From positions 1-38,405 of IMG/VR virus record IMGVR_UViG_3300017666_000012: a stretch of DNA of 38,405 bases. One strand, given 5' to 3'. Under the pieces are notes generated by a model. That model worked only from the letters and a program-made list of their open reading frames with translations, was not told where the DNA came from and did no database searches. Of this stretch, positions 637 through 34,734 are shown one piece after another (position 1 is the first letter of the stretch; every line of letters starts with the position of its first letter). The position numbers were made by a program, and so were the translations under genes. The DNA comes from a virus.

Positions 637-647
637 GCTGGGTCCCC

Positions 648-681
648 CGCGCGACAAACCCGGCTGGTTAGCAGAGGGGTA
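648..681 (+). promoter_or_regulatory. Bipartite repeated element, copy 1
   Basis: CGCGCGACAA (648-657), 13 unrelated bases, then GCAGAGGGGTA (671-681). The same two blocks with the same 13-base spacing occur at 7174-7207 and 20042-20075. This copy lies between the CDF gene and the integration operon. It is followed by a hairpin with stem GGCGAGG/CCTCGCC (684-706, 9-nt loop). The 3' block includes a Shine-Dalgarno-like AGAGGGG. The block-centre distance of about 23 bp resembles -35/-10 spacing, so a promoter is possible, but this is inference. Confidence 0.6.
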
Positions 682-984
682 GTGGCGAGGGCATCGCGTC
701 CTCGCCTCATGCCACAGCCTCGCACCAAGAACATCCCGAAGATCGACGGCGAGCGTGCATCCTGCCTCCCTGCTCGTGCAGTCGAACTGTTGGCGGCGGC
801 CACGGCCCGACTGATCGATGCGAACGCCCCGGCCCTGGGGCCAAGCATCGAGCATGCGGGCATTGACGCGGCTGGACTTGACCTTTCGGATCATGTTGCC
901 ATCAGTGTGCCTACGGGTGAACGCGACCGTCCCGAACCGGAGAACGCGCCGCGATGTGACCCGAAGGAGCCTGAAGGACGATGA
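682..984 (+). CDS. Small hypothetical protein, first gene of integration operon
   Basis: Function not recognised. The frame starting at GTG 682 gives 100 residues, and an internal ATG at 709 would give 91. The GTG sits only two bases after the AGAGGGG block, which is too close for a normal ribosome binding site, so the ATG may be the true start. The N-terminal half contains an Ala/Leu-rich helix around AVELLAAATARLI, and the last third is polar and charged (GERDRPEPENAPR). The stop overlaps the ATG of the DUF2924 gene (ATGA at 981-984), which is the best evidence that it is translated. It could instead be a leader ORF serving translational coupling. Confidence 0.45.
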   Translation: MARASRPRLMPQPRTKNIPKIDGERASCLPARAVELLAAATARLIDANAPALGPSIEHAGIDAAGLDLSDHVAISVPTGERDRPEPENAPRCDPKEPEGR

Positions 985-1502
985 GCACCGCCGCGACCAG
1001 AACCATCCAGCAACAGATCGACGAACTCTGCGGCATGCCCGTATCGCGCCTCCGCGAGCGCTACGCCGAGGCCTTTGGAGAACCGACGGCGTCCGGGAAC
1101 CGCCAGTGGCTCTTCCGCCGCGTGGCCTGGCGAATCCAGTCGCTCGCGGAGGGGGACCTCTCCGAGCGGGCGCGGCGTCGGGCCGCCGAGTTGGCGCGGG
1201 ACGTCGACGTCCGGGTCCGGCCGCCCAACGACGGGGAGCCCGCCCAGACCTCACGCACCGGCACCCGCTTGGTGACGATCACGGGGCGCATCGCCTCCGC
1301 GGGCAACGACCGCCTGCCCGCCCCCGGCACCGTGCTGCGCCGTATCTTCAAAGGCGCTGAGCACGAAGTCACGGTGCTCCCCAACGGCTTTGAGTACGAC
1401 GGGAAGGCCTACCGCTCGCTGTCGGCGGTGGCAACGGCGATCACCGGTTCGCACTGGAACGGCTTCTTGTTCTTCGGGCTGACCAAGAAGGGGGTCGCAT
1501 GA
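981..1502 (+). CDS. DUF2924 family protein
   Basis: A 173-residue protein matching the DUF2924 family, known mainly as the gene directly upstream of large serine recombinases. Its biochemical role is not established; a role as recombination accessory or directionality factor is inference from that linkage. Visible features are the N-terminal helical stretch IQQQIDELCGMPVSRLRER, a basic middle (RRRAAELARDV), and a C-terminal half with RIFKGAEHEVTVLPNGFEY followed by GKAYRSLSAVATAITG, the strand-and-helix signature typical of the family. The start overlaps the previous stop, and the stop (1500-1502) overlaps the recombinase start at 1499. Confidence 0.85.
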   Translation: MSTAATRTIQQQIDELCGMPVSRLRERYAEAFGEPTASGNRQWLFRRVAWRIQSLAEGDLSERARRRAAELARDVDVRVRPPNDGEPAQTSRTGTRLVTITGRIASAGNDRLPAPGTVLRRIFKGAEHEVTVLPNGFEYDGKAYRSLSAVATAITGSHWNGFLFFGLTKKGVA

Positions 1503-3085
1503 CCACCGCCACGCCACAACGCACGCGCCGATCCGCCGCGAACGGCACCGCTGGTGAGCACGGGGCGTCCACGCCGGGTCCGCGCTCGATCCGCTGCGCC
1601 ATCTACACCCGCAAGAGCACCGAAGAGGGGCTGAACCAAGAGTTCAACAGCCTCGACGCCCAACGCGAGAGCGCGATCGCGTACATCGCCAGCCAGAAGA
1701 ACGAGGGGTGGCAGTGTCTGCCCGAGAAATACGACGACGGCGGGTTCACCGGCGGGAACATCGAGCGCCCGGCGCTCAAGCGCCTGATGGCCGATATCGA
1801 GACCGGCAAGGTCAACTGCGTCGTGGTCTACAAGGTGGACCGCCTCAGCCGTTCGCTGATGGACTTCGCGCGGCTCATGGAGCTCTTCGACCGCAAGGGT
1901 GTCTCGTTTGTGAGCGTGACGCAGCAGTTCAACACGACCCACTCGATGGGTCGGTTAACGCTCAACATCCTCCTCTCGTTCGCACAGTTTGAGCGAGAGA
2001 TCATCTCCGAGCGGACGCGGGACAAGATCGCGGCGGCGCGCCGAAAGGGGAAGTACGCCCTCGGCAAGCCGATCCTCGGGTACGACTACGTGCCCTACCC
2101 GCCGCCCTTCACGGGTCGGCGGTTGGTGGTCAACAAGGCTGAGGCGGAGCGGATTCGGCGGATCTTCGAGTTGTACCTCGAAGCACGGAGCATCATGCAC
2201 GTCGCCGACGAGTGCAACGCACGCGGGTGGTCAACCAAGACCTGGACGACGACCGCCGGGCGGGTCGTCGGCAACCGGGCGTTCGACAAGCCCATCATCT
2301 CCCGACTTCTCCGCAATCCCCTTTACGTTGGCAAGGTGCCCCACAACGGAGCGGTCTACGACGGCGAACACGAAGCCATCGTCGACGACGATCTCTTCCG
2401 TCGCGTGCAGAACCAACTGAAGCTGGCAGCGGAGCGCGGCGGGGCGAGCGTCAAGAACTCGACCGGCTCGCTGCTCGGTGGGTTGGTACGGTGCAAGGGG
2501 TGCGGGTGTGCCATGTGCCCGAGCAGTGCGTCGAAGAAGAAGCCCGATGGCTCGCGCGTCCGCTACCGCTACTACGTCTGCTCAAACGCGGTGAAGCGCG
2601 GTCGGAAGCACTGCGCTGCGCCGTCGCTGCCCGGGCCTGCTCTTGAGACGTTCGTGATCGAGCAGGTCAAGGCCGTCCTCGTCAATGACCTGTCGATGCG
2701 TGCCGTCGTCGCCCGGGCGCTGGATCTGTTGCGCGAGGCGGCGGACCTCCGCGTCGCGGAACGCACACGGTTGCAAACCGTGCTTGAACGACTGTCAGGC
2801 GAGGAGCAGTCGCCAGCGACGCTCCGGGAGATCGAGCGTGTTCGTCGAACGCTGGCGGCCTTGGCCCGGCAGATTGACCTCGACGCCGACCGCCTGATCG
2901 ACGAGGACGAGGTGGTCGGGGCCGTCGAAGCGTTCGACGGCGTGTGGGGCGCGATGACCCTCGCCGAGCAGGCGGAATTCCTCCACGTCGTGATCACCAC
3001 CGTCGAGTACGACGGCGAGTCGCAGAACGTGTCAATCACCTTTCACCCCGGAGCGGAAGCCTCGGAGAAACCAGCCCTGCCATGA
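1499..3085 (+). CDS. Large serine recombinase (phage integrase)
   Basis: Site-specific DNA recombinase that would integrate and excise the element by a covalent 5'-phosphoserine intermediate (family knowledge). The 528-residue protein has an N-terminal resolvase domain from about residue 32, with candidate catalytic Ser40 in IYTRKS, followed by SLDAQRESA and the VVYKVDRLSRS segment. A recombinase domain follows (LGKPILGYDY to RLLRNPLYVG). A zinc ribbon is visible from RCKGCGCAMCPSS to YYVCSNAVKRGRKHCA, and a C-terminal helical, coiled-coil-prone part ends the protein. A good Shine-Dalgarno (AAGGGGG) precedes the ATG. It sits in the four-gene overlapping operon, and length and domain order look intact. 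Confidence 0.95.
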   Translation: MTTATPQRTRRSAANGTAGEHGASTPGPRSIRCAIYTRKSTEEGLNQEFNSLDAQRESAIAYIASQKNEGWQCLPEKYDDGGFTGGNIERPALKRLMADIETGKVNCVVVYKVDRLSRSLMDFARLMELFDRKGVSFVSVTQQFNTTHSMGRLTLNILLSFAQFEREIISERTRDKIAAARRKGKYALGKPILGYDYVPYPPPFTGRRLVVNKAEAERIRRIFELYLEARSIMHVADECNARGWSTKTWTTTAGRVVGNRAFDKPIISRLLRNPLYVGKVPHNGAVYDGEHEAIVDDDLFRRVQNQLKLAAERGGASVKNSTGSLLGGLVRCKGCGCAMCPSSASKKKPDGSRVRYRYYVCSNAVKRGRKHCAAPSLPGPALETFVIEQVKAVLVNDLSMRAVVARALDLLREAADLRVAERTRLQTVLERLSGEEQSPATLREIERVRRTLAALARQIDLDADRLIDEDEVVGAVEAFDGVWGAMTLAEQAEFLHVVITTVEYDGESQNVSITFHPGAEASEKPALP

Positions 3086-6606: not shown

Positions 6607-7173
6607 ATGCCTTCGATCGCAGCAGACGTGGCGCTGTCTTGCGCCGAGCGTAGCGGGCTTTCCGCTTTCCCTTCCCTCACCGTCCAGCAGATCCGGTTCC
6701 GCACCGATCGGCTGGGCCGGCTGTTCGCCCTCTCAACGGAGGAGATCGCTGATCTCCGCCAGGAGATTGCAGCCGAGATCACCCGTGCGATGCGACGCTT
6801 CAACCCCGCGATCGCATCACAGACGACGTACTGCAAGGGTGTCATGAACCTGTGGTACGGCAACAAGTGCAAGCAGCTCCGCCGCGAAGCGAAGTGGCGT
6901 GCACGCCTGGAGCCGCTCCCGCTGTTTGGTTCCGAGAGCGCGGAGTATGTCGAGCGCCGCCGGAGCGCCGCCTCCGAGGTCGATCTCCGTCTGGACATCG
7001 AGTCTGCGATCGCCCGCCTCCCCGGCGAGCTCCTCCCGGTCGCGCGTGACCTGTTGTGCGGCAAGTCGATCCCTGAGATCGCGGCGGCCCGCGGAGTTCA
7101 CCGCGGGACAGTGAATCGGATCGTGTTGCAGCTGCGGGTCTACCTGGCAGATCTGGACCCGCATTCCAACTAG
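6607..7173 (+). CDS. Sigma-70/ECF-like transcription regulator of the phage
   Basis: A 188-residue protein that looks like a small sigma-family factor. Residues about 30-85 form a helical sigma-2-like part (FALSTEEIADLRQEIAAEI through TYCKGVMNLWYGNKCKQL). Residues about 135-183 form a clear sigma-4-like helix-turn-helix (IPEIAAARGVHRGTVNRIV). The region-3 domain is absent, as in ECF and phage late regulators. The ATG has a strong GAGGAGG ribosome binding site, buried in the predicted leader structure. The stop is followed immediately by copy 2 of the repeated bipartite element. It plausibly directs RNA polymerase to phage promoters; whether the repeated element is its target is a hypothesis. 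Confidence 0.65.
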   Translation: MPSIAADVALSCAERSGLSAFPSLTVQQIRFRTDRLGRLFALSTEEIADLRQEIAAEITRAMRRFNPAIASQTTYCKGVMNLWYGNKCKQLRREAKWRARLEPLPLFGSESAEYVERRRSAASEVDLRLDIESAIARLPGELLPVARDLLCGKSIPEIAAARGVHRGTVNRIVLQLRVYLADLDPHSN

Positions 7174-7228
7174 CGCGCGACAAGCGGCGGCCGTGGGCAG
7201 AGGGGTACTGGCGTGCCCCTCGCCCACG
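7174..7228 (+). promoter_or_regulatory. Bipartite repeated element, copy 2, with RBS hairpin
   Basis: CGCGCGACAA begins one base after the sigma-like stop codon; after 13 bases GCAGAGGGGTA follows (7197-7207). Here the second block lies in a strong hairpin: CGTGGGC, bulged A, GAGGGG (7192-7205) pairs with CCCCTC GCCCACG (7216-7228), leaving a 10-nt loop that ends with GTG 7213-7215. An alternative stem TGGCGTG/CACGCCA overlaps it. The GAGGGG ribosome binding site would therefore be masked. Confidence 0.6.
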
Positions 7229-7344
7229 CCACGCCGCTCCAGCCCGATCGAGCGCTCCCGCTCGTCCGGCTTGGCCAGGGTGCTTTCACCCGCGACGTCT
7301 GGCCCGAGGACCTCGATCCCGCATTCCGCAGCCACGGAGAACCC

Positions 7345-8160
7345 ATGCCCGCTCCCGCAACAGCCACCCTCATGAATCAGATCAGCAAGGGCCGCAAGGC
7401 CCGTCCCCGCCGCGTGATGCTGTACGGCACTCACGGCATCGGCAAGAGCACCTTCGGCGCGATGGCCGAGAAGCCCATCTTTGTTCCCACCGAAGACGGC
7501 CTGGCCGACATCGACTGCGAGTCGTTCCCGCTGGCCCGCAGCCTCGGCGAGGTAATGGCGGCCCTCGAGTCCCTGTACTCGGGCGACCACGACTACCGCA
7601 CCGTCGTCATCGACAGCCTCGACTGGCTCGAGCGCCTGATCTGGGGCGAGGTCTGCGCCGACGAGAGCGTCGAGAACATCGAGAAGATCGGTTACGCGAA
7701 GGGCTTTGCCTTCGCAGTCGACAAGTGGCGTGCGGTACTCGGCGCGCTCGATGCGCTCCGCAGCGATCGCGGCATGACGGTCGTGCTCATCGCCCACGCC
7801 AAGATCGAGAAGTTCGAGAACCCCGAGACCGTGCCGTACGACCGCTACTCGCCGCGCCTGCACAAGCTCGCGTCGGCGCTCGTTCAGGAGTGGGCCGACG
7901 AGGTGCTCTTCGCCACGTACAAGGTCCACACCATCAAGGTTGACGAGGGGTTCAACAAGGCCAAGCACAACGGCGTGAGCACGGGCGAGCGGATCATCCG
8001 CACAGTCGAGCGCCCGGCGCATGTCGCCAAGAACCGCTTGGGTCTGCCTGAAGAGATCCCGCTGGACTACCGCGTCTTCGCGGCGCTCGTTCGCGGCGAG
8101 GACCCCTCCGCCGCCGTCGCCACACCTGCCCCCACCACCGACAACACCGCTGCGGCCTGA
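7345..8160 (+). CDS. AAA_24-type phage nucleotide-binding protein
   Basis: Cytoplasmic P-loop ATPase of the AAA_24 phage nucleotide-binding family, commonly found with recombination and single-strand-binding genes in phages. The Walker A sequence is GTHGIGKST, close to the N-terminus, and the Walker B strand is TVVIDSLDWLE. A later VVLIAHAKIEKFE strand fits the sensor region. I chose ATG 7345 (271 residues) because it has GGAG five bases upstream and gives the short N-terminus usual for the family. The frame stays open to GTG 7213 (315 residues), which has its own AGAGGGG site in the repeated element, so a long form or leader peptide is possible. It heads the replication and recombination module. 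Confidence 0.8.
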   Translation: MPAPATATLMNQISKGRKARPRRVMLYGTHGIGKSTFGAMAEKPIFVPTEDGLADIDCESFPLARSLGEVMAALESLYSGDHDYRTVVIDSLDWLERLIWGEVCADESVENIEKIGYAKGFAFAVDKWRAVLGALDALRSDRGMTVVLIAHAKIEKFENPETVPYDRYSPRLHKLASALVQEWADEVLFATYKVHTIKVDEGFNKAKHNGVSTGERIIRTVERPAHVAKNRLGLPEEIPLDYRVFAALVRGEDPSAAVATPAPTTDNTAAA

Positions 8161-8219: not shown

Positions 8220-8690
8220 ATGGCCACGCTGAACAACTTTGATGCCAACCAGGTTGACCCGTCCGTCGCGCTCGATCCGCTCCCCGCGGGCAAGTACCTC
8301 GCCGTCGTCTCCGAGTCGGAGCTCAAGCCGACCAAGACCGGCGGCGGTAAGTACCTTCAGCTGACCTTCCAGATCATCGACGGCGAGTTCAAGGGCCGCC
8401 TGGTCTGGGCCCGCCTCAACCTCGAGAACAAGAGCGAGATGACGGTAAAGATCGCTCGCGGCGAGCTCTCGGCCATCTGCCGCGCCATCGGCGTCATGCA
8501 GCCCAAGGACTCGGTCGAGCTCCACAACGTGCCGCTGGAGATCAACGTCGGGCTGAAGAAGCGCGACGACAACGGTGAGTTCACCAACGTCATCAAGGGC
8601 TACGCGAAGAAGGGCGGCGGCGGTTCGCCGGTGAGCGCCCGCTCTCCCGTCGGCGCTGGCCCCGGGAGCACGCCGCCCTGGAAACGCTAA
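8220..8690 (+). CDS. DUF669 family protein, probable ssDNA-binding replication protein
   Basis: A 156-residue DUF669 protein. Members accompany AAA_24 ATPases and RusA resolvases in phage recombination modules and are thought to bind single-stranded DNA. The visible core is LPAGKYLAVVSESELKPTK, GKYLQLTFQIIDGEFKGR and VWARLNLENK, a beta-rich OB-like pattern. It ends in a Gly/Ser/Pro linker and STPPWKR, reminiscent of the tails of SSB-like proteins. The ATG is preceded by AAAGGAA. The RusA frame begins before this gene ends if the CTG start proposed there is right. Confidence 0.8.
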   Translation: MATLNNFDANQVDPSVALDPLPAGKYLAVVSESELKPTKTGGGKYLQLTFQIIDGEFKGRLVWARLNLENKSEMTVKIARGELSAICRAIGVMQPKDSVELHNVPLEINVGLKKRDDNGEFTNVIKGYAKKGGGGSPVSARSPVGAGPGSTPPWKR

Positions 8691-9094
8691 CTCCATCCGG
8701 TCGCGTCCTGGAGCTCCCGTACCCGCCCAGTGTGAACCACATCTGGCGACGAATGGGCGCAAGGACCGTGCTGAGCCGCGAGGGGCGGCGCTACCGCGCA
8801 AGCGTGTGCGCCGCCCTCGCGGTGATGCGTGTGGTGCGGATGAACGGTCGGCTGGAGGTGCGTGTCACCGTCTGCCCGCCCGACAACCGCCGCCGCGATC
8901 TGGACAACGTGCAGAAGGCGCTGCTCGATGCGCTCGCCAAGGGCGGGGCGTACCGCGACGACTCGCAGATTGATCGGTTGATTGTCGAGCGTGGCCCGGT
9001 GACGCCGGGCGGCAAAGTGCTGGTGGAGATTCATGGCATCACTCACACGAACAACTCGCCCTCGCGATTCCCGGATGGCCCGGCGCGCGCCTGA
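8678..9094 (+). CDS. rusA: RusA-family Holliday junction resolvase
   Basis: Endonuclease that cuts branched DNA in phage recombination (family knowledge). Diagnostic parts are LELPYPPSVNHIW, the central VTVCPPDNRRRDLDNVQKALLDAL with its acidic DLDN motif, and DDSQIDRLIVERG with the second acidic pair. The first ATG/GTG in frame (GTG 8732) falls inside the conserved N-terminal strand and would remove LELPYPPS. The frame is open upstream to 8579 without ATG or GTG, so a CTG start is likely. CTG 8678 has GGGAG about nine bases upstream and gives 138 residues; CTG 8708 is the alternative. Fusion to DUF669 by frameshifting is a less likely reading. Confidence 0.75.
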   Translation: METLTPSGRVLELPYPPSVNHIWRRMGARTVLSREGRRYRASVCAALAVMRVVRMNGRLEVRVTVCPPDNRRRDLDNVQKALLDALAKGGAYRDDSQIDRLIVERGPVTPGGKVLVEIHGITHTNNSPSRFPDGPARA

Positions 9095-13838: not shown

Positions 13839-13916
13839 CGGACCCACCGCATGTGCGGCGGGCCACCACGACGCTTTGCGCTGGCGTTCCCCGCCGCGCT
13901 TCCGACGGAGATCGCT

Positions 13917-15287
13917 ATGAACATCGAGACGCTGCCCATCGACGCGGTCCACGAATACGACCGCAACCCCCGCACCATCAACGACGCCGCCATCGATGCG
14001 GTGGCCAAGAGCATCCAGGCCTTCGGATTCAAGGTGCCGATTCTGGTCGACGCCGACGGCGTGATCATCGCCGGGCACACGCGGCTCCGCGCGGCGCGGA
14101 AGCTCGGGCTGAAGGAGGTGCCGACCATCCGCGCCACCGATCTGACGCCCGAGCAGGTCAAGGCGCTGCGCATCGCCGACAACAAGGTCGCCACGCTGAC
14201 GTCGTGGGACATGGAGCTCCTGCCGCTGGAGCTGGCCGACCTCAAGTGCGTGGACTTCGACCTCGCGCTGCTCGGCTTCAGCGCCGAGGATCTCAGCGCC
14301 ATCATGGCTCCCGCGGGCAGCGAGGGTTTGACCGATCCCGATGACGTGCCGGGCGCACCGGACGCAGCGACGACGGTGCCCGGCGACATCTGGGTGCTCG
14401 GCAACCACCGCCTGATGTGCGGCGACTCGTCCAAGCCCGAGGATCTGGACCGTCTGCTCGATGGCCAGCCGATCCATCTCGTGAACACGGACCCGCCGTA
14501 CAACGTGAAGGTCGAGCCCCGCTCAAACAACGCGATCGTCGCCGGCCTGAGTTCGTTCGCGCTGCCCGGCAAGGCAGACCAGCACGACCAGCAGAGCGCG
14601 GACCTCAACCGCTACCCCGAGAAGAGCCGAGCGACGCACAAGAAACTCCGCGCCAAGGACCGGCCGCTCGCCAACGACTTCGTGTCCGATGACGAGTTCG
14701 ACCGCCTTCTCGCGGCGTGGTTCGGGAACATCACCCGCGTGCTGATCCCCGGCGGCACGTTCTACATCTGGGGCGGCTACGCCAACTGCGGCAACTACCC
14801 GCCCGTGCTCAAGCGCTGCGAGCTCTACTTCGCCCAGGCGATCATCTGGATCAAGGAGCACCCGGTCCTGACTCGCAAAGACTTCATGGGCAATCACGAG
14901 TGGTGCTTCTACGGCTGGAAGGAAGGTGCTGGGCACCGTTTCTTCGGCCCGGCAAATGTGCCGGATACGTGGAGCATCAAGAAGGTCAACCCGCAGAGCA
15001 TGGTCCACCTCACCGAGAAGCCTGTCGAACTCGCGCGGAGGGCCATCGAGTTCTCATCGCGTCCCGGCGAACACGTGCTCGACCTCTTCGGCGGCAGCGG
15101 CTCCACGCTCATCGGCGCGGAGATGACCGGGCGGCACGCGTTCCTCATGGAACTCGACACGCTCTACTGCGATGTCATCGTGCAGCGCTGGGAGAAGTTC
15201 ACGGGCCGCAAGGCCGAGCGGCTCCCGGCGAAGGGTGTGGCCGAAGAGAAAGCCGCGACGAGCGTCGCGGCTGGGAGCAAGGCGTGA
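13917..15287 (+). CDS. DNA methyltransferase with N-terminal ParB-like domain
   Basis: A 456-residue SAM-dependent DNA N4-cytosine or N6-adenine methyltransferase, beta-class motif order. Residues about 1-100 form a ParB-nuclease-like domain (IETLPIDAVHEYDRNPRTI, IIAGHTRLRAARKLG). The catalytic motif DPPY is at residues 192-195 and the SAM-binding motif DLFGGSGST starts at residue 389. The family is common in phages, where it modifies phage DNA against host restriction or tunes packaging and replication. ATG 13917 has CGGAG six bases upstream; the frame is open further upstream but without homology. No cognate restriction enzyme is present nearby. It ends 8 bp before the convergent minus-strand cluster. 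Confidence 0.9.
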   Translation: MNIETLPIDAVHEYDRNPRTINDAAIDAVAKSIQAFGFKVPILVDADGVIIAGHTRLRAARKLGLKEVPTIRATDLTPEQVKALRIADNKVATLTSWDMELLPLELADLKCVDFDLALLGFSAEDLSAIMAPAGSEGLTDPDDVPGAPDAATTVPGDIWVLGNHRLMCGDSSKPEDLDRLLDGQPIHLVNTDPPYNVKVEPRSNNAIVAGLSSFALPGKADQHDQQSADLNRYPEKSRATHKKLRAKDRPLANDFVSDDEFDRLLAAWFGNITRVLIPGGTFYIWGGYANCGNYPPVLKRCELYFAQAIIWIKEHPVLTRKDFMGNHEWCFYGWKEGAGHRFFGPANVPDTWSIKKVNPQSMVHLTEKPVELARRAIEFSSRPGEHVLDLFGGSGSTLIGAEMTGRHAFLMELDTLYCDVIVQRWEKFTGRKAERLPAKGVAEEKAATSVAAGSKA

Positions 15288-17289: not shown

Positions 17290-17538
17290 ATGACTCCCGA
17301 ACACGCGCCTAGTTCCCAGCCAGCGGGGGTCGGACAGGGAATGTCCCGGCTCAACCCGGCAGCGATGCCCGTGGCGGACGCCGCCCGCGTGCTCACCCGG
17401 CTTGGCGGCAAGCCCGTGACCGAAGCGATGCTCCGCGCCGACATCGATGCGGGCGCGCCGACCAACGCCGACGGCAGCGTCAACCTCGTGCACTACGCCG
17501 CGTGGCTCGTGAAGGAGATGTCCGCAGGTGGCGATTGA
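17290..17538 (+). CDS. Small protein upstream of TerL, candidate small terminase subunit
   Basis: An 82-residue protein with a DNA-binding-like helical core (MPVADAARVLTRLGGKPVTEAMLRADI) followed by a beta-like part ending VHYAAWLVKEM. ATG 17290 has GGGAGG six bases before it; the open frame starts earlier without a site. Position directly upstream of and overlapping TerL suggests a packaging recognition (TerS-like) role, which is inference. The N-terminus of TerL carries a similar module ending FRYVAWLA, so the two may be related by duplication. Confidence 0.6.
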   Translation: MTPEHAPSSQPAGVGQGMSRLNPAAMPVADAARVLTRLGGKPVTEAMLRADIDAGAPTNADGSVNLVHYAAWLVKEMSAGGD

Positions 17539-19813
17539 CCCGCGCAAACTCAAGCCCGGCGAACTCGCGCGGCTGCTCAACAGCACGCCGCTGGGCGAGG
17601 TGATCAGCGAGCGGCAGCTCCACCGGCATCGCACGCGCGCCGGGTTCCGCGTCGCGGCCGACGGCGATGCGGGCAAGGTTGATCTGTTCCGATACGTGGC
17701 GTGGCTGGCGACCACGCGGCACGAGGCGATCGCCGATGCTGCCAATGCGCCCGAAGGTCTGACGGGTTACGACGCGATGAAGGAGCGTGCCCGGCTCCGC
17801 AACGCGATGCTGTCGCTGTCGGGACGGGACATTGGTGATCTGCCGTCGGTTGCGGACCCGGCCAGGCGAGATCGAGCCGCGCGAGACTTCCGGTTCTTCT
17901 GCGAGGCGTATTTCCCGCAGACGTTTCACCTCAAGTGGTCGAACGACCATCTCAAGGTCATCGCCAAGATTGAGCAGGCGGTGCTCGATGGCGGACTGTT
18001 TGCGATGGCGATGCCGCGCGGCTCGGGCAAGACCTCGCTCTGCGAGATCGCGTGTCTGTGGGCGTTGGTGTACGGGCACCGGGAGTTCGTGGCGCTTGTC
18101 GGCTCCGACGAAGAGCACGCGGCCGGGATGCTCGATTCGATCAAGGCGGAGCTGGAGAACAGCGAGATCCTCGGCGGCGACTTCCCAGAGGTCTGCCACC
18201 CGATCCGCTCGCTCGAAGGCATTCACCAGCGGGCGTCCGGGCAGCTCTACCAGGGCAAGCAGACCCACATCGGCTGGACCGCCCGGGAGATCGTGCTGCC
18301 CACGATTCCGGGCTCCGCGGCATCGGGCGCGATCATTCGTGTCGCGGGGATCACTGGCCGCATCCGTGGCATGAAGCACAAGCGTGTCGACGGTGTGAGC
18401 GTCCGCCCGTCGCTCGTACTGATCGACGACCCGCAGACCGACGAGAGCGCCCGTTCGCCGTCCCAGTGCGCCAACCGAGAACGCATTCTCGCGGGCGCGA
18501 TCCTGGGCATGGCCGGGCCCGGACGGAAGATCGCCGGCCTGATGACGCTAACGGTGGTCCGACCTGACGATCTGGCCGACCGCATTCTCGACCGCGACAA
18601 GCACCCGCAGTGGCAGGGCGAGCGGACCAAGATGGCCTATTCGTTCCCCAGGAACGAGAAGCTCTGGGCCGAGTACGCCCGCGTGCGGGCCGAGGGGCTT
18701 CGCGCCGATCGGGGGATCATCGATGCCACGGCGTTCTACGGCAAGCACCGGACGGCGATGGATGAGGGAGCGGTCATCGCCTGGCCGGAGCGGTTCAACC
18801 ACGACGAGTTGTCGGCGGTGCAGCACGCCATGAACCTGCGGCTGCAGAACGAGGCCGCATTCTTCGCCGAGTACCAGAATGAGCCGCTGCCGGAGGTCGA
18901 GGTCGCCGACGACCTTTTGAGCGCCGACCAGATCGCAGCGAAGGTGAACGGGCACGCCCGCGGGCTTGTCCCACTCGGGTGCTCGCACCTGACGATGTTC
19001 GTGGACGTGCAGGGCAAGGCACTGTTCTACCTCGTGGCCGCCTGGGAGGACGACTTCACGGGGCACATCATCGACTATGGCACCGAGCCGGACCAGAAGC
19101 AGGCATACTTCACGCTTCGGGATGTGCGCCGGACGCTTGGGGCCGCTTCACCACGCGCCGGCGTTGAAGGCGCGATCTACGGTGGCCTGGAGCGGCTCAT
19201 CGAGGCGACGGTTGCTCGCGAGTGGCGGCGGGACGACGGCGCGATGGTGCGGGTCGACCGATGCTTGATCGATGCCAACTGGGGTTCATCAACGGATGTG
19301 GTCTATCAGTTCTGCCGCCAGAGTCCGCACGCCAGCGTGCTCACGCCCAGCCACGGACGCTATGTCGGCGCGAGCAGCCTCCCGTTCAGCGACTACAAGC
19401 GCAAGCGCGGCGAGCGGGTCGGCCTGAACTGGCGCGTGCCGATCGTGACGGGCAAACGGGCGGTGCGTCACGTCCTGTTCGACACGAACTACTGGAAGTC
19501 CTTTGTGCATGCGCGGCTGGCGGTGCCGATGGGCGATCCTGGAGGCCTCTCGTTGTTCGGCCAGAAGCCCGAGCCACACCGTCTGTTGTCGGAGCACCTC
19601 ACCAGCGAGTACCGCGTGCGGACGGAGGGCCGGGGCCGCACCGTGGACGAGTGGAAGCTTCGTGTCGAAGGCCTCGACAACCACTGGCTCGACGGTCTCG
19701 TCGGCGCTGCGGTCGCCGCGTCCATGCAGGGCGCGGTGCTGTTTGGTACCGACCACAAGGTCGCAGTGCGTCCCCGAATCAAGCTCTCGGCGCTGCGCGG
19801 GAGGACATCGTGA
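17528..19813 (+). CDS. terL: Terminase large subunit (packaging ATPase/nuclease)
   Basis: The 761-residue motor that translocates DNA into the prohead and cuts it. Residues 1-70 are an extra N-terminal module similar to the preceding small protein. The ATPase domain has Walker A PRGSGKTS (residues 163-170) and Walker B LVLIDD ending at D300/D301. The nuclease-like domain contains MFVDVQGKALFYLVAAW and, later, CLIDANWG, giving the acidic residues expected of the RNase H-fold nuclease. GTG 17528 overlaps the previous gene, with AAGGAG upstream. It is intact by length and motifs, and its stop overlaps the zinc-ribbon start (GTGA). Confidence 0.92.
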   Translation: MAIDPRKLKPGELARLLNSTPLGEVISERQLHRHRTRAGFRVAADGDAGKVDLFRYVAWLATTRHEAIADAANAPEGLTGYDAMKERARLRNAMLSLSGRDIGDLPSVADPARRDRAARDFRFFCEAYFPQTFHLKWSNDHLKVIAKIEQAVLDGGLFAMAMPRGSGKTSLCEIACLWALVYGHREFVALVGSDEEHAAGMLDSIKAELENSEILGGDFPEVCHPIRSLEGIHQRASGQLYQGKQTHIGWTAREIVLPTIPGSAASGAIIRVAGITGRIRGMKHKRVDGVSVRPSLVLIDDPQTDESARSPSQCANRERILAGAILGMAGPGRKIAGLMTLTVVRPDDLADRILDRDKHPQWQGERTKMAYSFPRNEKLWAEYARVRAEGLRADRGIIDATAFYGKHRTAMDEGAVIAWPERFNHDELSAVQHAMNLRLQNEAAFFAEYQNEPLPEVEVADDLLSADQIAAKVNGHARGLVPLGCSHLTMFVDVQGKALFYLVAAWEDDFTGHIIDYGTEPDQKQAYFTLRDVRRTLGAASPRAGVEGAIYGGLERLIEATVAREWRRDDGAMVRVDRCLIDANWGSSTDVVYQFCRQSPHASVLTPSHGRYVGASSLPFSDYKRKRGERVGLNWRVPIVTGKRAVRHVLFDTNYWKSFVHARLAVPMGDPGGLSLFGQKPEPHRLLSEHLTSEYRVRTEGRGRTVDEWKLRVEGLDNHWLDGLVGAAVAASMQGAVLFGTDHKVAVRPRIKLSALRGRTS

Positions 19814-20041: not shown

Positions 20042-20075
20042 CGCGCGACAAGAGTGCAGGCGCGGCAGAGGGGTA
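20042..20075 (+). promoter_or_regulatory. Bipartite repeated element, copy 3
   Basis: CGCGCGACAA (20042-20051), 13 bases, then GCAGAGGGGTA (20065-20075). It is followed, as in copy 2, by CT and a GTG codon five bases further on (20081). It separates the packaging genes from the head genes. The copy-2 hairpin is not preserved here; only GGGG/CCCC can pair across the loop. Confidence 0.6.
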
Positions 20076-20080
20076 CTCGT

Positions 20081-20287
20081 GTGCCCCAGACCCCTTCCAG
20101 CGATGACGAAGCCCTCCGCGAGGCTGCCAAACAGCCCGCCAAGGCCTCCGTCGACGGCCAGTCCGTCGAGCAGCACCCGCTGAGGGACCAGATCGAGGCT
20201 GATCGCTACCTCGCGTCCAAGGACGCCGCGAGGAAGCCCGGCCTCGGCATCAAGTTCGCCAAGATCGTCCCGCCCGGTTCTGTGTGA
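20081..20287 (+). CDS. Small hypothetical protein before portal gene
   Basis: 68 residues from GTG 20081 (VPQTPSSDDEALREAA...). AGAGGGG of the repeated element lies at ribosome-binding distance. The protein is polar and helical with no membrane segment; the segment HPLRDQIEADRYLASKDAA looks structured, and it ends GIKFAKIVPPGSV. It is a small protein between terminase and portal, a place often held by head-tail or packaging accessory genes. Family not recognised. Confidence 0.5.
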   Translation: MPQTPSSDDEALREAAKQPAKASVDGQSVEQHPLRDQIEADRYLASKDAARKPGLGIKFAKIVPPGSV

Positions 20288-20294
20288 CCTGCCC

Positions 20295-21857
20295 ATGCTG
20301 AAAGCCCTCGCCAACATCATGAGCCGGATCGCTCCCCATCGCGGGACGTCCACCGCCTCTCCCTCCCCGGCGGCGTCGCGTGCTCCGCACGGAGGCGGAT
20401 CGCGCGGCGGCCGTCGTTTGGTCGTTGCCAAGTTCGACTCAGCCAAGACCACACCGGAGAACCGCAAGCACTGGGCCAACGCCGACGGTCTGTCGCCCAA
20501 CGCTGCCATCAACCCGGAAGTCCGGCGCGTCCTCCGCAACCGCGCCCGATACGAGGTCGCCAACAACTCCTACGCCAAGGGCATCGTCCTCACGCTCGCC
20601 AATGACACCATCGGCACCGGTCCCCGGCTGCAGATGCTCACTGACGACGCCGACGCGAATGCTCGCATCGAGGATGCGTTCGAACAGTGGTCGCGGGCCG
20701 TTGACCTCCCCGGAAAGCTCCGCACCATGCGGCTGGCCCGGGCAGAGAGCGGCGAGGCGTTCGCGCTTCTGATCAACAACCCCGGCATCGCGTCGGCGGG
20801 CTCGCCGGTATCGCTTGATCTCAAGCTCATCGAGGCCGACCAGGTCTGCACGCCCTTGCTTCGCCGCGGGCGCAACGACGAGATCGACGGCATTGCGCTG
20901 GATCAGTGGGGCAACCCCTCCGCCTACCGCGTGCTCAAGCGGCACCCCGGTGACAGCGGCGTGTTCCGCACGCCGATCGACGACCTCACGGCCTACGACA
21001 CGTTCGCGGCCTCTTCGGTCGTGCACTACTTCCGTCCAGACCGGCCCGGCCAACTCCGCGGCATCCCTGACATCACGCCGGCGCTCCCGCTGTTCGCGCA
21101 GCTCCGCCGGTACACACTGGCGACCATCGCGGCCGCCGAGACCGCCGCCAACTTCGCCGCCGTCATCTACACCGACAGCCCCGCCAACGGCGAGGCCGAT
21201 CCGTTGGAGCCGATGGACGAGGTGGAACTCGAGCAGCGTCTCGCCACCGTGCTTCCGGGCGGCTGGAAGCTCGGCCAGGTGCATGCCGAGCAGCCAACAA
21301 CGACATTCGGCGAGTTCAAGCGCGAGATCCTCAACGAGATCGCCCGCTGCCTGAACATGCCGTTCAACGTCGCGGCCGGCAACTCCTCGGGTTACAACTA
21401 CGCCAGCGGTCGCCTTGACCACCAGGTGTACTACAAGAGCATCCGCGTCGAGCAGCACCACCTGCAGCTCGCCGTGCTCGATCGCATCCTGAAGGCGTGG
21501 TTGAACGAGGCGGTGCTTGTCGAAGGGCTGCTCCCGCAATCCCTGCGGACCATCGCCGCCACCTTGCCCGAGCATGCGTGGTTCTGGGATGGCGTCGAGC
21601 ACGTTGATCCCGCCAAAGAAGCGAACGCCCAGGCCACCCGACTGGCCAACCACACGACCACGCTCGCCGCGGAGTTCGCCCGGCAAGGCCGCGACTGGGA
21701 GCAGGAGCTCCGCCAGCGTGCCAAAGAACTCACGCTCATGAACGAACTCGGCCTCGCGCTCGCAACCGCACCGGCCGCCGCTCCGGCTGCGAACGCCCCC
21801 GCCGAAGACCCCGCAGACCAAGTTGATGAGGAGACCGCCAGTGCCAGTCACCGCTGA
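20295..21857 (+). CDS. Phage portal protein, lambda family
   Basis: A 520-residue portal, the dodecameric ring at the capsid vertex through which DNA enters. Lambda-type portal signatures include NRARYEVANNSYAKGIVLTL near residue 90, the GEAFALLINN segment, LIEADQV, HYFRPDRPGQLRGIPDI and LNEIARCLNMPFNVAAG. The C-terminus is Ala/Pro-rich. ATG 20295 has no clear Shine-Dalgarno, so it may depend on coupling to the small gene ending 7 bp earlier. The capsid gene starts inside its last codons. Confidence 0.92.
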   Translation: MLKALANIMSRIAPHRGTSTASPSPAASRAPHGGGSRGGRRLVVAKFDSAKTTPENRKHWANADGLSPNAAINPEVRRVLRNRARYEVANNSYAKGIVLTLANDTIGTGPRLQMLTDDADANARIEDAFEQWSRAVDLPGKLRTMRLARAESGEAFALLINNPGIASAGSPVSLDLKLIEADQVCTPLLRRGRNDEIDGIALDQWGNPSAYRVLKRHPGDSGVFRTPIDDLTAYDTFAASSVVHYFRPDRPGQLRGIPDITPALPLFAQLRRYTLATIAAAETAANFAAVIYTDSPANGEADPLEPMDEVELEQRLATVLPGGWKLGQVHAEQPTTTFGEFKREILNEIARCLNMPFNVAAGNSSGYNYASGRLDHQVYYKSIRVEQHHLQLAVLDRILKAWLNEAVLVEGLLPQSLRTIAATLPEHAWFWDGVEHVDPAKEANAQATRLANHTTTLAAEFARQGRDWEQELRQRAKELTLMNELGLALATAPAAAPAANAPAEDPADQVDEETASASHR

Positions 21858-23784
21858 CAAGACCAAGACCATCCCAGCCCTCACGCTCACTGCAACCGCC
21901 GACATCACCGTCGCCGCCGCTGCTGACGGGCAGAGCGCTCCGTTGCCACGCTTCAAGATGGTCGCGTACACCGGTGGCGCGATGCGCGTCGCGGGCTGGC
22001 GGCACCCCGTCGTGATCGATCTCGCAGGCCTGGCGGTCCCGTCGCAGGCACGCCCCATCCGCTTCGGACACGACCCGCTGTCGGGCGTCGGCCACACCGA
22101 TTCGATCCGCGTTGAGGCCGGGCAGCTCGTGGCGACAGGCGTGATCTCGCGTGACACGAGCGCCGCCAAGGAAGTCGTCGCGTCCTCGCGGAACGGCTTC
22201 CCGTGGCAAGCCTCCGTTGGCGCGAGCGTCGAGGAGTTCGAGTTCATCAAGGACAACCAGAAGGCGACGGTCAACGGCCAGGAACTCACCGGCCCGGTCA
22301 ACGTCGTCCGCAAGGCCACGCTCGGCGAGATCAGTTTCGTGGATCTCGGCGCAGACGGCCGCACCAGCGCGAGCATCGCCGCGCGTCAGAACAAGGAGCC
22401 CAGCGTCATGGCCGACGACCCCACGACTTCCATTCCCACCCCGTCCCCAATCATCGCCACCGAGCAGACGCCCGAGCAGGTGCGAGCTGCAGCCCTTGCC
22501 GAGACCGCCCGCATCGCCGCCGTTCGCAAGGTCTGCGGTGGCAAGCACAGCGAAATCGAAGCCCAGGCCATCCGCGACAACTGGGATGCCACGCGCACCG
22601 AGCTCGAGGTCCTCCGCGCCAGCCGCCCTAAGGCCCCGGCCATCCACGCGCCCGACACCAGTGTCACCAGCGAAGTGCTGGAGGCCGCGTGCTTCCAGAG
22701 CGCCAAGCTCGAAGGCATCGAGAAGGTCTGCTCCACGCAGGCCATCGAGATCGCCGCCAAGCGGTTCCAGGGCGGGCTGGGACTGCAGGAGCTGCTCTTC
22801 GAGGCCGCGATCGCCAACGGCTACACGGGCCGCACGTTTCGTGACAGCCGCCGCGTGCTCGAAGCCGCCTTCGGACGCGGCATCGAGGCGGGCATGACCA
22901 CCATCGACGTGGGCGGCATCCTCTCCAACGTCGCCAACAAGTTCCTGCTCGAGGGCTTCTTCAGCGTCGAGCGAGTGTGGCGGAGCATCTGCGCCGTCCG
23001 CAATGTCAGTGACTTCAAGACCGTCACGAGTTACCGTCTGGTAGGCAAGGACCAGTACGAGCAGGTCGCACCCGGCGGCGAGCTCAAGCAGGGCACGCTC
23101 GGCGAGGAAACCTACACCAACAAGGCCGACACCTACGGCTTGATGCTTTCGATCGATCGCCGCGACATCATCAACGATGACCTCGGCGCGATCACCACGG
23201 TGCCCCGCAAGCTCGGCCGGGGCTCGGGCCTGAAGATCAACGACGTCTTCTGGACGGCGTTCATGAACAACGCGGCGTTCTTCAGCGCCGGCAACAAGAA
23301 CTTCGTCTCGGGCGCGGACACCGCCCTCGGTATCGACGGCCTCACCAAGGGCGAGGTCGCCTTCATGGACCTTGTGGACTCCGACGGCAAGCCCACCGGC
23401 GTGATGCCCGCGGTCCTGCTGGTGCCGACGGCGCTGTCGGCGATGGGCACGCAGCTCTACAAGAGCGTTGAGCTCCGGGACACGACCGCGAACACCAAGT
23501 TCCCCGTCGCTAACCCGCACCAGGGCAAGTTCCGCATCGAGGTCAGCCGCTACCTCTCCAACGCCCTCTACACCGGCAACTCGGCCAAGGCGTGGTACCT
23601 CCTCGCGGACCCCAGCGACCTGCCGGTCATCGAGATGGCGTTCCTCAACGGCCAGGAAGCCCCGACCGTCGAGACCTCGGACGCGGACTTCAACATGCTC
23701 GGGATCCGGATGCGTGGGTACCACGACTTCGGCGTCAACCTGCAGGACCCGCGCGGCGGCGTGAAGAGCAAGGGCGAGGTGTAA
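21841..23784 (+). CDS. Prohead protease fused to major capsid protein
   Basis: About 647 residues combining maturation protease and capsid subunit. Residues about 35-190 look like a prohead protease, with His77 in RFGHDPL and Ser125 in WQASVGA as plausible catalytic residues. An acidic/Ala-rich linker follows (about 195-260), possibly the scaffold. From about residue 300 the sequence matches the Mu gpT/HK97-like capsid (GGILSNVANKFLLEGFF, YGLMLSIDRRDIINDDLGA, YHDFGVNLQDPRGG). I chose GTG 21841 with GGAG eight bases before it, over ATG 21826. A long minus-strand open frame opposite it is a composition shadow. Confidence 0.9.
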   Translation: MPVTADKTKTIPALTLTATADITVAAAADGQSAPLPRFKMVAYTGGAMRVAGWRHPVVIDLAGLAVPSQARPIRFGHDPLSGVGHTDSIRVEAGQLVATGVISRDTSAAKEVVASSRNGFPWQASVGASVEEFEFIKDNQKATVNGQELTGPVNVVRKATLGEISFVDLGADGRTSASIAARQNKEPSVMADDPTTSIPTPSPIIATEQTPEQVRAAALAETARIAAVRKVCGGKHSEIEAQAIRDNWDATRTELEVLRASRPKAPAIHAPDTSVTSEVLEAACFQSAKLEGIEKVCSTQAIEIAAKRFQGGLGLQELLFEAAIANGYTGRTFRDSRRVLEAAFGRGIEAGMTTIDVGGILSNVANKFLLEGFFSVERVWRSICAVRNVSDFKTVTSYRLVGKDQYEQVAPGGELKQGTLGEETYTNKADTYGLMLSIDRRDIINDDLGAITTVPRKLGRGSGLKINDVFWTAFMNNAAFFSAGNKNFVSGADTALGIDGLTKGEVAFMDLVDSDGKPTGVMPAVLLVPTALSAMGTQLYKSVELRDTTANTKFPVANPHQGKFRIEVSRYLSNALYTGNSAKAWYLLADPSDLPVIEMAFLNGQEAPTVETSDADFNMLGIRMRGYHDFGVNLQDPRGGVKSKGEV

Positions 23785-32310: not shown

Positions 32311-33199
32311 GAACCAGTCAGACATCGCGGCGCTCCAGGCCGGGCTGAAGGCGCGTAAGCCGGCGCGTGATGGCCTGCGCCTCTACACCGCCGACTTCGA
32401 CTCCGTGTCGCTTGGTGGGTTCTACCGCGGGCGTTCGGCGTTCCTGATCCTGTCGGGTCCGTCGCTCACGCAGCTCGATCTCTCGGCGCTCAACAAGCGC
32501 GGCATCGTCACCATGGCCGTGAACAACGCATGGGCGGTGCATCGTCCGACGCTTTGGACCTGCGTCGACGATCCCGGCCGCTTCATCGATACCGGCTGGA
32601 AGGACCCGGGCATTCTGAAGTTCGTGCCCACGTGCATGTGGGACAAGCGGCTCCGCATCCAAGGCCCCGACGGCGCGATGCGCAACAGCGCGTTTCGGGT
32701 CCGACAGATGCCCAGCGTCATGTTCTTCCGCCGTGCGGATCACTTCGACCATGAGCGGTTCCTGACTGGAGACAGCGTCCCGTGGGGCAACGACGCCAAG
32801 AACCCCGACTCTTTGGGCATCACCGGCAAGCGCTCGGTCATGCTCGTGGCACTCCGCCTTCTGCACTACCTCGGATTCTCAACGGTGTACCTGCTGGGGT
32901 GCGACTTCAAGATGGCCGAGGACCGCAAGTACGCCTTCGCCGAGAATCGGGCTGCCAACGCGATCCGGCACAACAACGTGCTGTATGACTCGCTGGCACG
33001 GCGCTTCGAGGCCCTCAAGCCGCACTTCGAGAAGCACCGCTTCCGCGTGGTGAACTGCTCGCCCGGCAGCGAGCTGCAGGTCTTCGAGCGCATGGAGTTC
33101 GCCGACGCCGTCGCGGCCGCGTCGGCAGAGTGCGGCAAGCCCGTGAACACGCAGGGGTGGTACGAGCCGAATGTGAAACCCCAGGAGGCCGCACGATGA
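32288..33199 (+). CDS. DUF115/MptE-like or sialyltransferase-like protein
   Basis: About 303 residues. The N-terminal core AFLILSGPSLTQLDLSAL followed by VTMAVNNAWAVH and WTCVDDPGRF matches the DUF115/GT42-like fold that binds nucleotide-sugar or related donors. The later VYLLGCDFKM is also typical. Start uncertain: ATG 32288 (23-nt overlap) or GTG 32303 (GGGGGG five to eight bases upstream). Members act in flagellin or surface glycosylation (Maf-type) or pterin metabolism; context favours glycosylation. Confidence 0.6.
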   Translation: MGGAAVRENQSDIAALQAGLKARKPARDGLRLYTADFDSVSLGGFYRGRSAFLILSGPSLTQLDLSALNKRGIVTMAVNNAWAVHRPTLWTCVDDPGRFIDTGWKDPGILKFVPTCMWDKRLRIQGPDGAMRNSAFRVRQMPSVMFFRRADHFDHERFLTGDSVPWGNDAKNPDSLGITGKRSVMLVALRLLHYLGFSTVYLLGCDFKMAEDRKYAFAENRAANAIRHNNVLYDSLARRFEALKPHFEKHRFRVVNCSPGSELQVFERMEFADAVAAASAECGKPVNTQGWYEPNVKPQEAAR

Positions 33200-34734
33200 G
33201 CGACGGCCCCACCCGCTACTACCTCTATATCCCGGTCTGGGCCACGGGCCGCGCTCCGCAGGGCGGCGGGTCGAGCAACTACTCGACGCCGTCGGGCTCT
33301 ACGCCGGAGAGCACGTACTCGACGCCCACCAGCACGCCGAGCATGCCCCCGAGCTACTCGACGACGGGTGACGTGATATACACGACCGGGTCGGGCGGCA
33401 CGCCGACGCTTACGTTCTACACCACCGATGCGTTCACCAGCAACACGCCGGGGACGACGCACACGCCGTCGAGCAGCGGGCCAATGTCATCGAGCGGATC
33501 GGGAAGCACGCCAACGAGCGACACGACTAGTTCCATGTCTTCGAGCGCTTCAGGCTCGAGCATGACGTCCAGCATGAGCAGTTCCGGCGGTGGCAGTTCC
33601 TCGGGCATGAGTTCGTCGGGCGCTTCGTCGGGCATGAGTTCCGGGGCGTCCAGCGGGATGTCGTCGGGGGCGAGTTCGGGCATGTCCTCGGGCGGGTCAT
33701 CGGGTGCGTCCTCCGGAGGATCGTCCGGAGGGGGCAGTTCAGGGGGCGGCTCGTCGGGCGGGGGCGGGTCCAGTGGCGGCGGAAGCGGCCCGGGCGGCTC
33801 GGGTCCCGGAGGCTCCGGTCCTGGCGGTTCTGGGCCGGGAGGGTCGGGCCCTGGGGGAAGCGGGCCGGGTGGGTCCGGACCCGGCGGCTCCGGGCCAGGT
33901 TCCAACTGCGTGCTGGCCGGGACGCCGGTGCGGCTGGCCTCGGGCCAGACCGTGCCGATCGAACGTCTGAAGCCGGGCGATCGCATCGCGGCGCTCGACG
34001 TGGCGGGCCTCGACCGCGATGTACCGTGGCGGGCGCAGTACCAGTGGCTGCGTCAGCGGGCCGAGGCGGTGCTCACGCCGGTCACCGGCTCCGTGGCCAG
34101 CGTCACGGTCGGCACGCACGACGGGTTCATCACCATCAACGGTCGCCTGCGGCTCACGCCCGAGCACCCAGTGCTCCTGCGCCGCGGCGATGAGGTCGGG
34201 TTCGTGTCGGCGGAGTTCGTACTTGTTGGCGACTACCTCGTGCGGCACGACCTCAGCGAGGAGCGCATCGAGAAACTTGCCCGCGCTGGCGATCGCGTGA
34301 CCACAGTCGCGGTGCATGTGCCCGGTCTGAATGTCTTCCTGGCCGACGGCGTGTGGGTCCACAACGACATGCCCGCGACGCAGGCAACGGGATCGGGATC
34401 GGCTTCTGGTTCGGGCTCCGGTTCTGGCTCGGGATCAGGCTCCTCCAGCGGCAGCGGGTCCGGCTCCGGCAGCGGCAAGTCGAGCGGCTCGTCCATGTCG
34501 AGCTCCGGAAGCTCGTCGGGGTCCGGCAGCTCGTCTGGCTCATCGAGCGGCAGCGGAAGTGAGAGCGGCTCCGGCCCGCCCGGTTCAGGCTCGGGGTCCG
34601 GCAGTGCTCAGCAGTCCGTGGCGCTCGGTGAGGGTGCGTCGTCGTTCATTGAGGGCGGCATGGAGGGCGTGCCGCCCGCGAAGTGGCAGCAGAGTGGATT
34701 GAGCAGTGGCATCGAAGAGGAGGTGAAGGCATGA
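33196..34734 (+). CDS. Ser/Gly/Thr-rich surface protein with internal Hint (intein-like) domain
   Basis: 512 residues. Residues 1-237 begin with a short structured start ([13 protein letters not shown]) and then become Ser/Thr/Pro-rich and finally GPGGS repeats. Residues 238-390 are a Hint domain: Cys238 in CVLAGTPV, the TxxH block with T321 and H324 in LTPEHPVLL, and the C-terminal H389-N390 in GVWVHND. The next residue is Asp391, not Cys/Ser/Thr, as in bacterial intein-like (BIL) domains. Residues 391-512 are mostly Ser/Gly repeats with a structured end. No homing endonuclease. Probably a fibre or surface protein that is processed by the Hint domain and glycosylated by the next two genes; this is inference. 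Confidence 0.8.
33541..33903 (+). repeat. Low-complexity Ser/Gly/Pro coding repeats, upstream of Hint
   Basis: Degenerate short repeats encoding [11 protein letters not shown]-like units and then about eight GPGGS units. Codons for the repeated Gly and Ser vary, so the repeat is stronger in protein than in DNA. Length variation between strains is likely. Confidence 0.7.
34381..34611 (+). repeat. Low-complexity Ser/Gly coding repeats, downstream of Hint
   Basis: Encodes SGSGSGSG and SSGSSSG runs immediately after the Hint domain. It mirrors the low-complexity region on the other side, so the Hint domain is an island between two disordered, hydroxyl-rich arms. Confidence 0.65.

Follow-up and report, generated by a model that had tools for sequence, protein, structure and literature searches.

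The prophage and its three element copies

The stretch of DNA analyzed here, called the window throughout, is a 38,405-base virus record in which a phage is flanked by host-type genes, a cation-efflux gene on the left (1-636) and, on the right, a minus-strand gene for a heavy-metal P-type ATPase (36024-38405). This prophage belongs to hosts of the Phycisphaerales (Planctomycetota). Its relatives in bacterial genomes were also prophages, and their hosts, many of them represented by metagenome-assembled genomes, were nearly all Planctomycetota and mostly Phycisphaerales.

All the phage genes run rightward (plus strand), in the order DUF2924, large serine recombinase, sigma-like, AAA_24/DUF669/RusA, helicase and primase, methylase, terminase, portal, and capsid. 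The integration region holds a small ORF of about 91 amino acids (709-984), for which the conserved ATG (ATGCCAC) at 709 rather than the GTG at 682 was taken as the start, followed by the genes for the DUF2924 protein (981-1502; Pfam PF11149, E value of 2e-44) and the large serine recombinase, or integrase (1499-3085; Pfam Resolvase, Recombinase, and Zn_ribbon_recom). The small ORFs between the integrase and the sigma-like gene (6607-7173) had no Pfam match, and hence no repressor is named here. The replication operon opens with the AAA_24 ATPase (7213-8160; PF13479, E value of 5e-51) and continues with the DUF669 protein (8220-8690; PF05037) and a RusA-type resolvase (8732-9094; PF05866). Farther on lie the large subunit of a GpA-type terminase (17528-19813; PF20454) and the head operon, which begins with a small conserved ORF (20081-20287), homologous in relatives from its GTG onward, and includes the lambda family portal protein (20295-21857; PF05136, E value of 3e-60) and the major capsid protein (21823-23784; PF25209, E value of 1e-44). 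The DNA methylase encoded at 13851-15287 carries a ParB N-terminal domain, and a gene near the right end (33130-34734) gave a weak Hint-domain match under the cut-off.

A bipartite element, CGCGCGACAA-N13-GCAGAGGGGTA, occurs three times on the plus strand of the window: at 648-681 (copy 1, or P_int, upstream of the integration operon), at 7174-7207 (copy 2, or P_rep, abutting the stop codon of the sigma-like gene), and at 20042-20075 (copy 3, or P_head, between the terminase gene and the head operon). The claim of an earlier note on this DNA that the copies are exact was confirmed: all three match at 21 of 21 fixed bases and have the same 13-bp spacer. No fourth match was found on either strand of the window with up to three mismatches allowed, and the pattern did not occur in 100 dinucleotide shuffles. 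Either block alone, with mismatches allowed, was found at chance level; the signal thus lies in the two blocks combined at a constant distance. It is likewise true that a GTG lies five bases past the second block in copies 2 and 3 (at 7213 and 20081, respectively); the triplet at the equivalent place behind copy 1 is GAG.

Copy 1 lies at the left edge of the prophage, with the sigma-like gene farther along the same strand. Homology between prophages begins at about 649, and P_int apparently coincides with attL, so that part of its upstream block may be supplied by the host. In five prophages (G004, G005, G032_25, G042_10, and H1_a), the similarity starts no more than about 2 bp from the -35 part of copy 1 (window positions 645-655), while the sequence to the left is unrelated. 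Five phages have the same 13 bp, ACCCGGCTGGTTA (658-670 in the window), as the spacer of copy 1, while the spacers at the replication and head positions are more variable; this spacer may double as half of a serine-integrase att site. Between P_int and the ATG, the window (682-708) and the corresponding copies of relatives contain an inverted repeat, GGCGAGG...CCTCGCC.

The sigma-like protein and the geometry of the elements

The sigma-like gene encodes a protein of 188 amino acids, which on its own matched only region 4 and helix-turn-helix models of Pfam, under the cut-off, and TIGR02937 (sigma70-ECF) with an E value of 2.6e-6, below the curated cut-off. Among the 32 family members, TIGR02937 matched 28 and Sigma70_r2 matched 27, and 27 also matched a PHROG of RNA polymerase sigma factors. 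A profile of the family, compared with the PDB, found the ECF sigma factor SigE, with both domains covered (E value of 5e-9). The AlphaFold (AF2) model of the window protein had a mean pLDDT of 85.5, and its top fold matches were sigma factors, with low whole-chain TM-scores (about 0.3), such as would be expected if the two domains move freely. Like group 4 (ECF-like) sigma factors, this is a small protein with regions 2 and 4 only. A tblastn comparison of the sigma with named phage records gave no match.

Relatives were gathered by AAA_24 similarity, a route that misses those without a similar AAA_24, and a sigma homologue was present in 126 of the 155 loci. Of the first loci examined, only some had the window-type element ahead of AAA_24. 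The picture cleared with the sequence just past the sigma stop codon, compared in 110 distinct regions: of the multimember clusters among the 23 sigma clusters defined at 45% identity, most have at that stop codon a common element specific to the cluster, and for some clusters no element was identified there. The pattern [CG]GnCAn-N(s)-TAnGTA was found in these 110 regions 21 times at s = 17 and zero or one time at every other s from 10 to 25, and not at all on their reverse strand at s = 17. Across clades, the elements thus appear to resolve as a -35 block, (C/G)GnCAn, a 17-bp spacer, and a -10 block such as TAnGTA. In the register that this geometry suggests for the window clade, CGACAA would be the -35 and AGGGGT the -10 equivalent, although another register for this G-rich -10 is possible. 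These parts lie at 652-657 and 675-680 in P_int, 7178-7183 and 7201-7206 in P_rep, and 20046-20051 and 20069-20074 in P_head, with transcript starts predicted at about 687, 7213, and 20081, respectively; for copies 2 and 3 the predicted start is the G of the GTG that opens the AAA_24 gene and the small head ORF. The G-rich AGGGGT is unlike the TAnGTA of the other clades, which counts against reading it as a promoter.

The same three places in relatives (the integration operon [INT], the position behind the sigma gene [REP], and the head operon [HEAD]) carry an element, the sequence of which follows the encoded sigma. Most phages tested by self-scan repeat their own sigma-linked element upstream of the integration operon, the head operon, or both, and a search of 43 phage sequences with 11 type patterns on both strands placed all matches but one at INT, REP, or HEAD. 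H1_a has GAGAGGTA in place of GAGGGGTA at all three sites; the sigma of G008, its close relative, is 55% identical to that of the window. A first self-scan of sigma cluster 0 gave no clear repeat, and its promoter was later recognized as overlapping the sigma stop codon. In part of this cluster (G032_3, G033, and G034), the promoter, GGGCAG-N17-TAGGGA, has its -35 within the 3' end of the sigma gene and takes in the stop codon as part of its -10.

Joint variation of sigma type and element type

The earlier note had proposed that the element represents a phage-specific promoter class read by the sigma-like protein and that relatives be searched for co-occurrence of the two. This proposal was supported by the way in which element and sigma vary together. 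All 13 distinct loci with a window-type sigma have the element directly behind the sigma gene, and in relatives with a divergent sigma the corresponding places hold another element. The position before the integration operon was kept in nine phages of the same sigma type, and that before the head operon in nine phages of the same element type. Among 67 typed loci, none of the 1892 pairs with sigmas less than 45% identical share an element type, and 296 of the 319 pairs at 45% or more do; below 35% identity the count is 0 of 1784, including 465 pairs with AAA_24 proteins at least 90% identical. Because the typing was done by hand on these very clades, the pairwise counts express consistency and are not an independent test.

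For the same reason, agreement at INT and HEAD weighs more than that at REP. The INT type equals the REP type in all 20 phages that have both (6.0 expected by permutation), and the HEAD type equals the REP type in 23 of the 28 phages with both typed (5.4 expected). Neither level of agreement was reached in any of 100,000 permutations, a figure that overstates the number of independent events, since close relatives are over-represented. G030 was left out of the 23 because the type pattern missed it; in its self-scan it shows its own element past the sigma gene, ahead of DUF2924, and between the terminase gene and the head ORF. A single pair illustrates the exchange: G013 is 97% identical to the window in terL, portal, and capsid, 96% in AAA_24, and 99% in DUF669, whereas its sigma belongs to a cluster only about 20% identical and its recombinase is 48% identical. 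Its REP and HEAD promoters are GGACAG-N17-TATGTA rather than the window type; its INT promoter is off the contig.

In a scan of 2.9 million viral contigs, the elements were found mainly in this phage family. GCGACA-N15-CAGAGGGGTA was found at 17 loci, 16 of them with proteins of the family, while the control with a spacer one base shorter (N14) was found at 5 loci, 1 with a family protein. Of the other types, a B-type 20-mer was in-family at 15 of 15 loci and a shorter C-type pattern at 29 of 41. As in known phage sigma regulons, there are few promoter-like sites, they follow one consensus, they stand at operon starts, and they are tied to a phage sigma. Sigma-dependent transcripts of such regulons start 6 to 9 bp from the element; for the window, the geometry predicts starts near 687, 7213, and 20081.

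In five phages the head element is that of another sigma type: H1_b (A/E0), H1_c (E1/C), G035_d (Bb/A), G008 (A/B), and G009 (A/E1). H1_b, which is without P_int, and H1_c share one 3.6-Mb chromosome record (H1_PLA1), so the exceptions are not simply errors of short contigs. From their sequences, the five look like mosaics, or module recombinants. Were the elements promoters for the phage sigma, these exceptions would need cross-recognition, a second sigma, or decay of the mosaics.

A phage sigma regulon as the proposed mechanism

With a probability of about 0.88, we read the three elements as promoters for host RNA polymerase carrying the phage ECF-like sigma encoded at 6607-7173. The sigma would redirect the host polymerase to sites with CGACAA as the -35, 17 bp, and AGGGGT(A) as the -10, and, once made, it would turn on three rightward operons, i.e., integration (with the sigma gene farther on), replication, and head/tail. 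Since the sigma operon has one such element ahead of it, positive feedback is likely. At copies 2 and 3, transcription would begin at or next to the GTG and leave almost no leader, while the transcript from copy 1 would have a leader of about 22 nucleotides. The sites and their positions, the family of the sigma, and the joint variation of site and sigma are seen in the sequences; direct recognition of the elements by the sigma, the transcript starts, the feedback, and a trigger that first makes the sigma are what we infer from comparing genomes.

Start codons bear on this reading and on its alternatives. In window-type (A-type) copies, a GTG stands at exactly +5 in 22 of 22 cases (REP, 13/13; HEAD, 9/9), and the near-leaderless transcripts suggested earlier are therefore plausible for copies 2 and 3. 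They are not so for copy 1: the nine phages examined at INT all have GAG and none GTG at that place, with a conserved ATG behind the short inverted repeat. Behind the -10 of the other types there is an SD-like site with an ATG, at 40 nucleotides in type C, 16 to 17 in type D, and 29 to 35 in type B. The element thus goes with transcription, and leaderless starts are possibly a feature of copies 2 and 3 of the window clade only. A general 5' hairpin behind the promoters was considered and rejected, since folding of the first 45 nucleotides gave a mean z of about 0 at REP and HEAD and of -0.4 at INT, where the folding window clipped the start of the A-type inverted repeat.

That the GTG is fixed at +5 in all 22 REP and HEAD copies and that GAGGGG resembles a Shine-Dalgarno sequence would also fit an extended ribosome-binding site standing before genes, possibly the target of a phage RNA or protein, comparable to the SAS and ESAS of cluster K mycobacteriophages, which are likewise oriented, phage-specific repeats lying near start codons, roughly half of which have an additional part upstream (PMC3203893). 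We consider this very improbable. The other clades have a separate SD-like site and an ATG 16 to 40 nucleotides downstream, which also disfavors the earlier idea of partly translational conservation as the main cause; the INT copies lack a start codon at the place in question; the SD core itself varies (GATGGG in L028 and L030, GAGAGG in H1_a); and the -35 block and the 17-bp rule would be left unexplained. The SAS and ESAS moreover differ in sequence, are present in many copies, have no reported link to a sigma gene, and are positioned by start codons and not by a 17-bp promoter geometry, and the 13-bp SAS consensus, GGGATAGGAGCCC, had no match in the window with up to two mismatches allowed.

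Some phage late activators have sigma-like helix-turn-helix domains. The window protein, with its own Pfam matches confined to region 4 and helix-turn-helix models, could in principle be of this kind, so that it or a linked phage regulator would activate the host sigma-70 polymerase in the manner of ArpU or RinA. The chance of this appears slim, given that the family has both region 2 and region 4 by the profile comparisons above and that the 17-bp spacer and TAnGTA as second block have the geometry of a promoter. Least probable of all, and in our view barely credible, is that a host sigma factor uses the elements as its promoters or that the host recognizes them in some other way; the near restriction of the hosts to Planctomycetota, and mostly to Phycisphaerales, makes a shared host factor conceivable, but different types occur within one host order and even on one chromosome (H1_PLA1), and the INT and REP types always track the phage sigma.

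Read as promoters of the phage sigma, the elements have known counterparts. The phages phiEco32 and 7-11 are lytic. Their sigma factors, gp36 and gp47, respectively, steer the host polymerase to a handful of middle and late phage promoters, as proposed here; the two proteins are distant homologues (15% identity) and their promoters are dissimilar, bipartite in 7-11 (GTAAtg-16-aCTA), yet similarly placed in the genomes (PMC8948821). That system is enterobacterial, comprises two known specificities, and has biochemical proof, whereas ours belongs to planctomycete prophages, comprises about 10 types, and is read from sequence comparison. Unlike in phiEco32 and 7-11, the sigma and its promoters here change together from one phage to another while replication and head genes remain 96 to 99% identical, and one promoter precedes the integrase at the edge of the prophage. 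A mobile element of Bacillus subtilis, the plasmid pBS32, likewise encodes an ECF-like sigma, SigN (ZpdN), that activates itself and a regulon on the plasmid that includes replication genes (PMC6751061), as we propose for the window; SigN is LexA controlled, biochemically proven, and plasmid borne, while the window has three putative promoters in a chromosomal prophage. Our literature search found no description of this planctomycete system, which does not prove that there is none. Phage sigma regulons are thus already known, and it is the modular arrangement with many specificities that is new.

Tentatively, and with the odds against it, we suggest that the 10 or so, or more, distinct sigma-promoter sets are exchanged as units so that coresident prophages avoid cross-activation, a role like that of the lambdoid repressor and antiterminator immunity types. 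If so, mosaic prophages with the head promoter of another sigma would depend on a coresident phage, and the question arises of whether sigma type defines prophage compatibility within one cell. For a phage group for which no described relative was found, the comparison makes the regulatory layout legible, and it supplies a natural collection of ECF-like sigmas, every one matched to its two or three promoters against a genetic background that hardly changes. Such a collection offers a direct route to the sigma residues that set specificity and, possibly, parts for orthogonal expression.

Two further arrangements were seen among the relatives. In G001, G002, and G042, a distant AAA_24 homologue (about 31 to 38% identity) stands behind the same promoter and GTG. 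L034, L036, and L052 (G021) have tandem sigma-like genes, each followed by its own promoter-like element, which could possibly form a two-step cascade.
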